The position numbers and the translations under genes are program-made. From Halosolutus amylolyticus (GTDB lineage: Archaea; Halobacteriota; Halobacteria; Halobacteriales; Natrialbaceae): a stretch of 64,000 bases of DNA. The notes beneath the pieces are model-generated. The model was not told the DNA's origin. It searched no databases and worked only from the letters and a program-made list of their open reading frames with translations. The DNA lies in NCBI RefSeq assembly GCF_023566055.1, contig NZ_JALIQP010000001.1, forward strand, positions 434,001 through 498,000, written 5' to 3'. Below, piece after piece: positions 30,809 through 31,325 of the stretch (positions are counted from its first letter, which is position 1; the number at the start of each line of letters is the position of its first letter).

Positions 30809-31325
30809 TCAGTCCTCGGACTCGCTCGCTCGTTCCTGCAACCGCCTCCCCTCTTCGCTCTCGACGGTGAGTTCGGGCACCGGAACCGGCTTCCCGTCCC
30901 CGTCGATCGCGACGAACGTGAACGAGGATGCGGTCGTCTTCTCGGTCTCGCCCGTCCGGGGCTCCTCGCGCCAGGCCCGCAGGGCGACGTCGACGCTCGA
31001 TCGCCCCGCATCGTAGACGTATGCCTCGACGAGCGCCGTGTCGCCGATCCGAATCGGTCGCTCGAAGTCGAGTTCGTTCACCCGGGCGGTGACGCAGGTC
31101 TCGCCGGCGAAGCGCATCGCCGACATGGCGCTCACCTCGTCGAGCCACTTCATGAGGTTCCCGCCGTGGAGCGTGTCGTTATTGTTCGCATTACCTCCGA
31201 ACGTAACGGTTTACACGAATTCGCCCGAATCTCGGGCGAATTCGTTCAACGACTTACGTTCGAAGGTAGTGGTTCGGCTGGACGCGGAATCGATTCCGGA
31301 TGTGCGTCTCCAGGACTGTCGGCAT
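30809..31325 (-). pseudogene. Hotdog-fold acyl-CoA thioesterase split and frameshifted by a palindromic insert
   Basis: Reading from ATG at 31325, codons give MPTVLETHIRNRFRVQPNH, the usual start of this family. The frame then enters a 79-base palindrome (31190-31268) and soon stops. After the insert the original protein resumes in another frame as ANNNDTLHGGNLMKWLDEVS, then AMSAMRFAGETCVTARVN and continues to the stop at 30809. Joining the halves restores a normal thioesterase of about 145 residues, with the HGGN and MKWLDE active-site segments. The later ATG at 31153 could still make a 114-residue protein lacking the first strand and HGG loop, probably inactive. Confidence 0.85.
31190..31268. 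repeat. 79-bp palindromic element inserted in the thioesterase gene
   Basis: The ends tacctccgaacgtaa (31192-31206) and ttacgttcgaaggta (31254-31268) are inverted repeats with one mismatch. Inside them acgaattcgcccga (31215-31228) and tcgggcgaattcgt (31232-31245) are perfect inverted repeats with a 3-base loop. The inserted length, 79 bases, is not a multiple of three. It has no open reading frame, so it must be mobilised in trans if mobile. A short target-site duplication cannot be distinguished from coincidence. Confidence 0.75.

Follow-up and report, generated by a model that had tools for sequence, protein, structure and literature searches.

A palindromic mini-element of a mobile haloarchaeal family interrupts an acyl-CoA thioesterase gene at a base common to two genera

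The window considered here is the whole stretch of Halosolutus amylolyticus DNA that was analysed (64,000 nucleotides). It contains a 4HBT (YciA-like) acyl-CoA thioesterase gene, the two parts of which lie apart on the minus strand. The first part (31269-31325, minus strand) comprises 19 codons running from the ATG to RVQPNH and ends in CAC (31271-31269). There follow 79 bp (31268-31190), after which the second part (30809-31189, minus strand) resumes with GCG (31189-31187), reads ANNNDTLHGG... and contains the listed open reading frame 30809-31153 (MKWLDE..). Translation of the minus strand from 31325 gave MPTVLETHIRNRFRVQPNH, then YLRT and a stop codon within the palindrome; beyond the palindrome, ANNNDTLHGGNLMKWLDE continues on the same strand in a different frame. 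The downstream open reading frame was matched by the Pfam 4HBT model with E = 1e-14 and 55 bits (cut-off 20.6), and the NCBIfam YciA model matched the host gene under its cut-off. The window genome also possesses a thioesterase paralogue (66%).

The first-pass annotation had proposed that a mobile element splits this gene, that the borders of the insert adjoin 31269 and 31189, and that removal of 79 bases restores one continuous protein. Comparison with uninterrupted relatives, including the alignment with close strains that it recommended, bore out each of these points. The relatives match both sides of the insert and read straight through CAC^GCG, a junction that is also unbroken in the same-genus genomes G001 and G002; in G002 it reads CCGAATCAC^GCGAACAAC. 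Measured against the uninterrupted genes the insert is exactly 79 bp (31190-31268), and once it is removed the window gene aligns with them codon for codon. The first part differs from that of G002 by 8 silent changes and no amino-acid changes.

The insert and its immediate edges form an inverted repeat (31189-31228 and 31232-31271) with 40-nt arms that are 80% complementary and separated by a 3-nt loop. Folded as single-stranded DNA, it reached -30.1 kcal/mol compared with -13.4 kcal/mol for shuffled sequences (z = -7.0), and none of 200 shuffles folded as well. Within it we delimited a palindromic mini-element of 77 bp (31192-31268, minus strand; TACCTTCGAACGTAAG...CGTTACGTTCGGAGGTA, with the ends TACC..GGTA) belonging to the covariance-model family described below, and an inner hairpin with approximate borders at 31212-31247, consisting of GAATTCGCCCGA and its complement, which is conserved in other family members. 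The remaining 2 bp (31190-31191, minus strand) are a possible copy of the target AC (31270-31269) that ends the first part; they read AT in the window and AC in the three other genomes that carry the insert. The interrupted genes are thus arranged as CC-AC-[TACC..GGTA]-AC-GCG, against CCAC-GCG in the uninterrupted ones. An Rfam scan of the loci returned tRNAs only, and similarity of the element to a tRNA-Lys intron hairpin (L039) was weak (E = 0.0035).

A DNA search for the insert, covering 392 genomes of the order, returned three strong matches besides the window, all of them in Natrinema and each in a different species: N. altunense AJ2 (G010), G168 and G261. In each, the orthologous gene is interrupted by the palindrome at precisely this junction (loci L034, L035 and L036), and a reading of the insertion as private and recent has to be revised. 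The annotation had also named an observation that would count against its reading, namely relatives with the same palindrome at the same place in an expressed gene; half of this, the palindrome at its place, is found in the three Natrinema genomes. The inserts measure 79 bp in the window, 81 bp in G010 and 78 bp in both G168 and G261, with pairwise identities of 87-99%. Judged by flanking sequence, uninterrupted close relatives are available for all three (G173 for G010, G069 for G168 and G197 for G261). The subtype, TACCTTCGAACGTAA, was seen at no other place in the genomes searched. An arm search, as previously suggested, found the arm sequence once in the window. The idea that the insert is multi-copy within the window genome was rejected: the genome holds this one close copy together with two more distant family members (C7:28609 and C4:203675). 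The window element had no match in the phages or plasmids searched.

In all four genes, reading from the ATG meets a stop codon inside the palindrome, and the window insert alone also changes the frame. The insertion most likely inactivates the thioesterase gene. Much of the second part has been deleted in G261, where HGG has become RGG. In G010 an alanine has been replaced by proline and a methionine by leucine, both at positions that do not vary among the close uninterrupted relatives compared, and a 12-nt deletion has removed four codons. Apart from the insert, the coding sequence of G168 and that of the window gene are intact. For the second part, dN/dS of the window gene against intact relatives was 0.13-0.24, inside the range of intact between-genera pairs; the corresponding values were lower for G168 and mildly raised for G010. 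Taken on their sequences, the four interrupted genes would represent a series of stages following inactivation, and so appear to display gene death in progress after one kind of insertion; the window gene and that of G168 may still work somehow. The earlier argument that few lesions imply a recent event stands in part: the window gene has no excess of amino-acid changes and its interruption may be recent, but the subtype of the element predates this single insertion. The gene looks dispensable, since several of the 29 Natrinema genomes (G100, G261, G358, G402, G403, G404 and G407) yielded no intact orthologue at E <= 1e-35.

A covariance model, seeded with the insert from each of the four genes plus a related G343 palindrome, detected palindromes about 74-80 bp long. 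These occurred in 62 of the 392 genomes in the order and in 49 of the 125 in the taxonomic family. Copy number reaches tens per genome, G127 alone yielding 45 forward arm matches, and multi-copy genomes occur in the order's other families. The canonical form, TACTGTCGGCTGTAA...TTACAGCCGACAGTA, is 77-78 bp long. Of 31 distinct canonical copies, a set determined by which loci were retrieved and no random sample, 27 are flanked by a 3-bp direct repeat that is always TNA, mostly TGA or TCA. One locus between a metalloprotease and an alcohol dehydrogenase gene holds a copy in Haloarcula hispanica, where TGA at the stop codon is duplicated; in both H. marismortui and H. sinaiiensis the site is empty. 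From the TNA duplications and this occupied and empty site, we conclude that the family is mobile. It is a family of MITE-like, non-autonomous, non-coding palindromic mobile elements, and palindromes scattered across the haloarchaea are thereby joined into a single mobile family whose size and target duplication are defined. Canonical relatives are present on Haloarcula, Halomicrobium and Haloplanus plasmids; the canonical arm pattern had no match in the viral contigs searched. No TNA duplication flanks the copies in the thioesterase gene, the possible 2-bp AC (AT in the window) being the only candidate.

The 77-bp element resembles MITEs in being short, without coding capacity, bounded by terminal inverted repeats (TACC..GGTA) and multi-copy in some genomes, and in the target duplication of its canonical members; movement is evident both from the uninterrupted relatives at the thioesterase site and from the empty and occupied Haloarcula site. 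Unlike MITEs, it is almost wholly one palindrome, no parent transposon was found for it and the thioesterase copies are without the usual 3-bp duplication. Membership of the class is incomplete, because there is no known parent transposon and the duplication at the thioesterase site is doubtful. Small mobile repeats (SMRs) of Haloquadratum, MITEs and PATEs have been described (PMC3119063). SMRs, for example the 80-bp HqIRS41 of Haloquadratum walsbyi, are reported to be without target duplication, and some have a strong target preference (PMC3119063). They share with the present family a size class, non-coding character and inverted-repeat ends unlinked to a known transposon, whereas canonical copies here have TNA duplications, the two having been compared by description. 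PATEs and the IS605-type haloarchaeal palindromes are likewise short, palindromic and transposase-free, but PATEs have near-terminal palindromes and neither terminal inverted repeats nor target duplication (PMC3119063). No description of this palindrome family was found in the literature searched, with most subscription papers outside its reach.

Canonical members would have been moved by a transposase that duplicates a 3-bp TNA target, and a parent transposon would be expected to have the ends TACTGYCGGCTGTAA together with TNA duplications. A search for the parent transposase, which was not exhaustive, found none. One candidate at L148 (G127:C1:2843900-2845700), a 1491-bp stretch with matching ends and an IS4-type transposase, was rejected as the parent: this IS4/ISH8-like element is inserted inside a palindrome and has its own 10-bp duplication, CTTTACGAAC. 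Here one mobile element has landed in another. Relatives of its transposase were not found in the window genome.

That one base is common to two genera poses a clean question: was one allele recombined, or is the base a preferred target? The gene tree led to rejection of the idea that the interrupted gene passed as a whole from one genus to the other; in this tree, the window gene falls within its own genus (100/99), next to G002 (97/82) and apart from Natrinema. Between the window and Natrinema, silent divergence was 0.24-0.28 in the first 28 downstream codons and higher upstream, compared with 0.09-0.10 for the element. Nearby silent differences exceeded element differences for each of the three Natrinema copies (p = 6e-4, 0.0015 and 7e-5), and between G168 and G261 the element was again less diverged than nearby silent sites (p = 0.002), in tests that assume independent sites and a neutral element. 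Between G168 and G261, both the element and the sequence immediately downstream of it have changed little. Among the second parts compared, those of G010 and G168 are mutually nearest at silent sites (0.125), a value similar to their element divergence of 10/78. These Natrinema data are consistent with a single haplotype.

We consider it likely that a non-autonomous mobile element of about 77 bp, from a family widespread in Halobacteria, disabled an ordinary thioesterase gene, and that one old insertion has spread. A foldback element of this size would have inserted into the gene and disabled it through stop codons, with a frameshift in addition in the window. The interrupted allele arising from this one old insertion most likely passed between species by homologous recombination, its flanks presumably being exchanged later for local alleles. 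The window copy would have come from an unsampled donor as a short or eroded tract, and the gene would then decay at differing paces. Several findings oppose this account: the copies at the thioesterase site are without a TNA duplication, no parent transposase was found, the window gene groups with its own genus and has no sign of an imported Natrinema-type flank, and both it and G168 are under normal coding constraint, whereas a dead gene should lose such constraint over time. The lack of an imported flank is also what would be expected if the TACCTTCGAACGTAA subtype had inserted independently several times, moved by a transposase with a strong preference for the conserved codons around QPNH^ANNN. 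We judge such repeated insertion, the chief rival account, unlikely. It would suit the presence of an uninterrupted close relative for every interrupted gene, the elements being less diverged than nearby silent sites, the window gene itself not having been transferred and the subtype being found nowhere else in the genomes searched; the Haloquadratum SMRs with strong target preference (PMC3119063) offer a parallel. However, several insertions from an unseen source are required, the site is without the TNA used by the family, and the second parts of G010 and G168 seem to be co-inherited with their elements.

The exact position common to all carriers would also be explained if the insert were intron-like, being removed from the mRNA at a bulge-helix-bulge or skipped by the ribosome, so that the gene works and the uninterrupted relatives have lost the insert precisely. 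Archaeal mRNA introns with bulge-helix-bulge motifs are known, as in cbf5 of Crenarchaeota, and the likeness to the present case is that of a short hairpin insert within a protein gene. Such removal accords with the normal constraint on the coding sequence of G168 and of the window gene, and with double changes that keep pairing in the insert. These changes, found at 10 of 33 kept pairs, trace for the most part to the more distant copy in G343; for this reason, and because palindrome arms can stay alike by repair, they are no proof of a working RNA. Moreover, a bulge-helix-bulge scan of the four genes (bulges of 2-4 nt) gave no in-frame product, decay is visible in G261 and G010, and other family members are intergenic with target duplications; removal or skipping of this kind is, in our view, highly improbable. 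A broader reading, which we rate as rather unlikely, is that a gene-less palindrome of 77 bp homes across genera to a single conserved codon junction in a metabolic gene, whether it is a mini-element with a site preference or an intron-like insert that is cut out of the RNA. The window genome assembly consists of 9 contigs, but an assembly artefact is ruled out because four genomes share the insert at the same base; with a fold z of -7 besides, there is practically no chance that the palindrome is an artefact or accidental.

Further observations concern the wider family and its surroundings. In Haloarcula sp. CBA1115 (L225), the metalloprotease / alcohol dehydrogenase stop-codon site holds a much diverged palindrome; because this site too is occupied, the thioesterase gene may not be alone in having a shared site. 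Copies at L144, L146, L141 and L220 coincide exactly with the TGA that terminates the upstream gene, a siting attributable to a TNA target, which would favour TGA; copies so placed might act as transcript ends. Other genes are apparently split by family members, namely at L132 (1501-1577, G197), where the frame runs ..EKFEEKYVS / YVEDLEAAYSAAYQ.., and at L138 (1501-1577, G337), in a cupin-like gene (..ALGFTDFAMN / FELEPGES..). Arm pairs in G058 (e.g. C1:970313-970420) occur at two spacings, about 77 and 108 bp, which suggests a longer palindrome variant. A 10-mer, GCGAACAACA, occurs both near the target and near the intergenic G343 copy, where it is part of another hairpin, and was judged a chance match. 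Finally, a short array of hairpin units lies 3' of tRNA-Ser(GGA) in Natrinema (L122, about 1216-1700; also L123-L127, L129, L147, L207, L211 and L213), with the tRNA 3' end (TTCAAATCCCTGTCCTGGCG) repeated after every unit at a spacing of 116-229 bp. The palindrome family is one unit type of this array, and the tRNA-Ser(GGA) end is single copy in the window genome and in same-genus G002.
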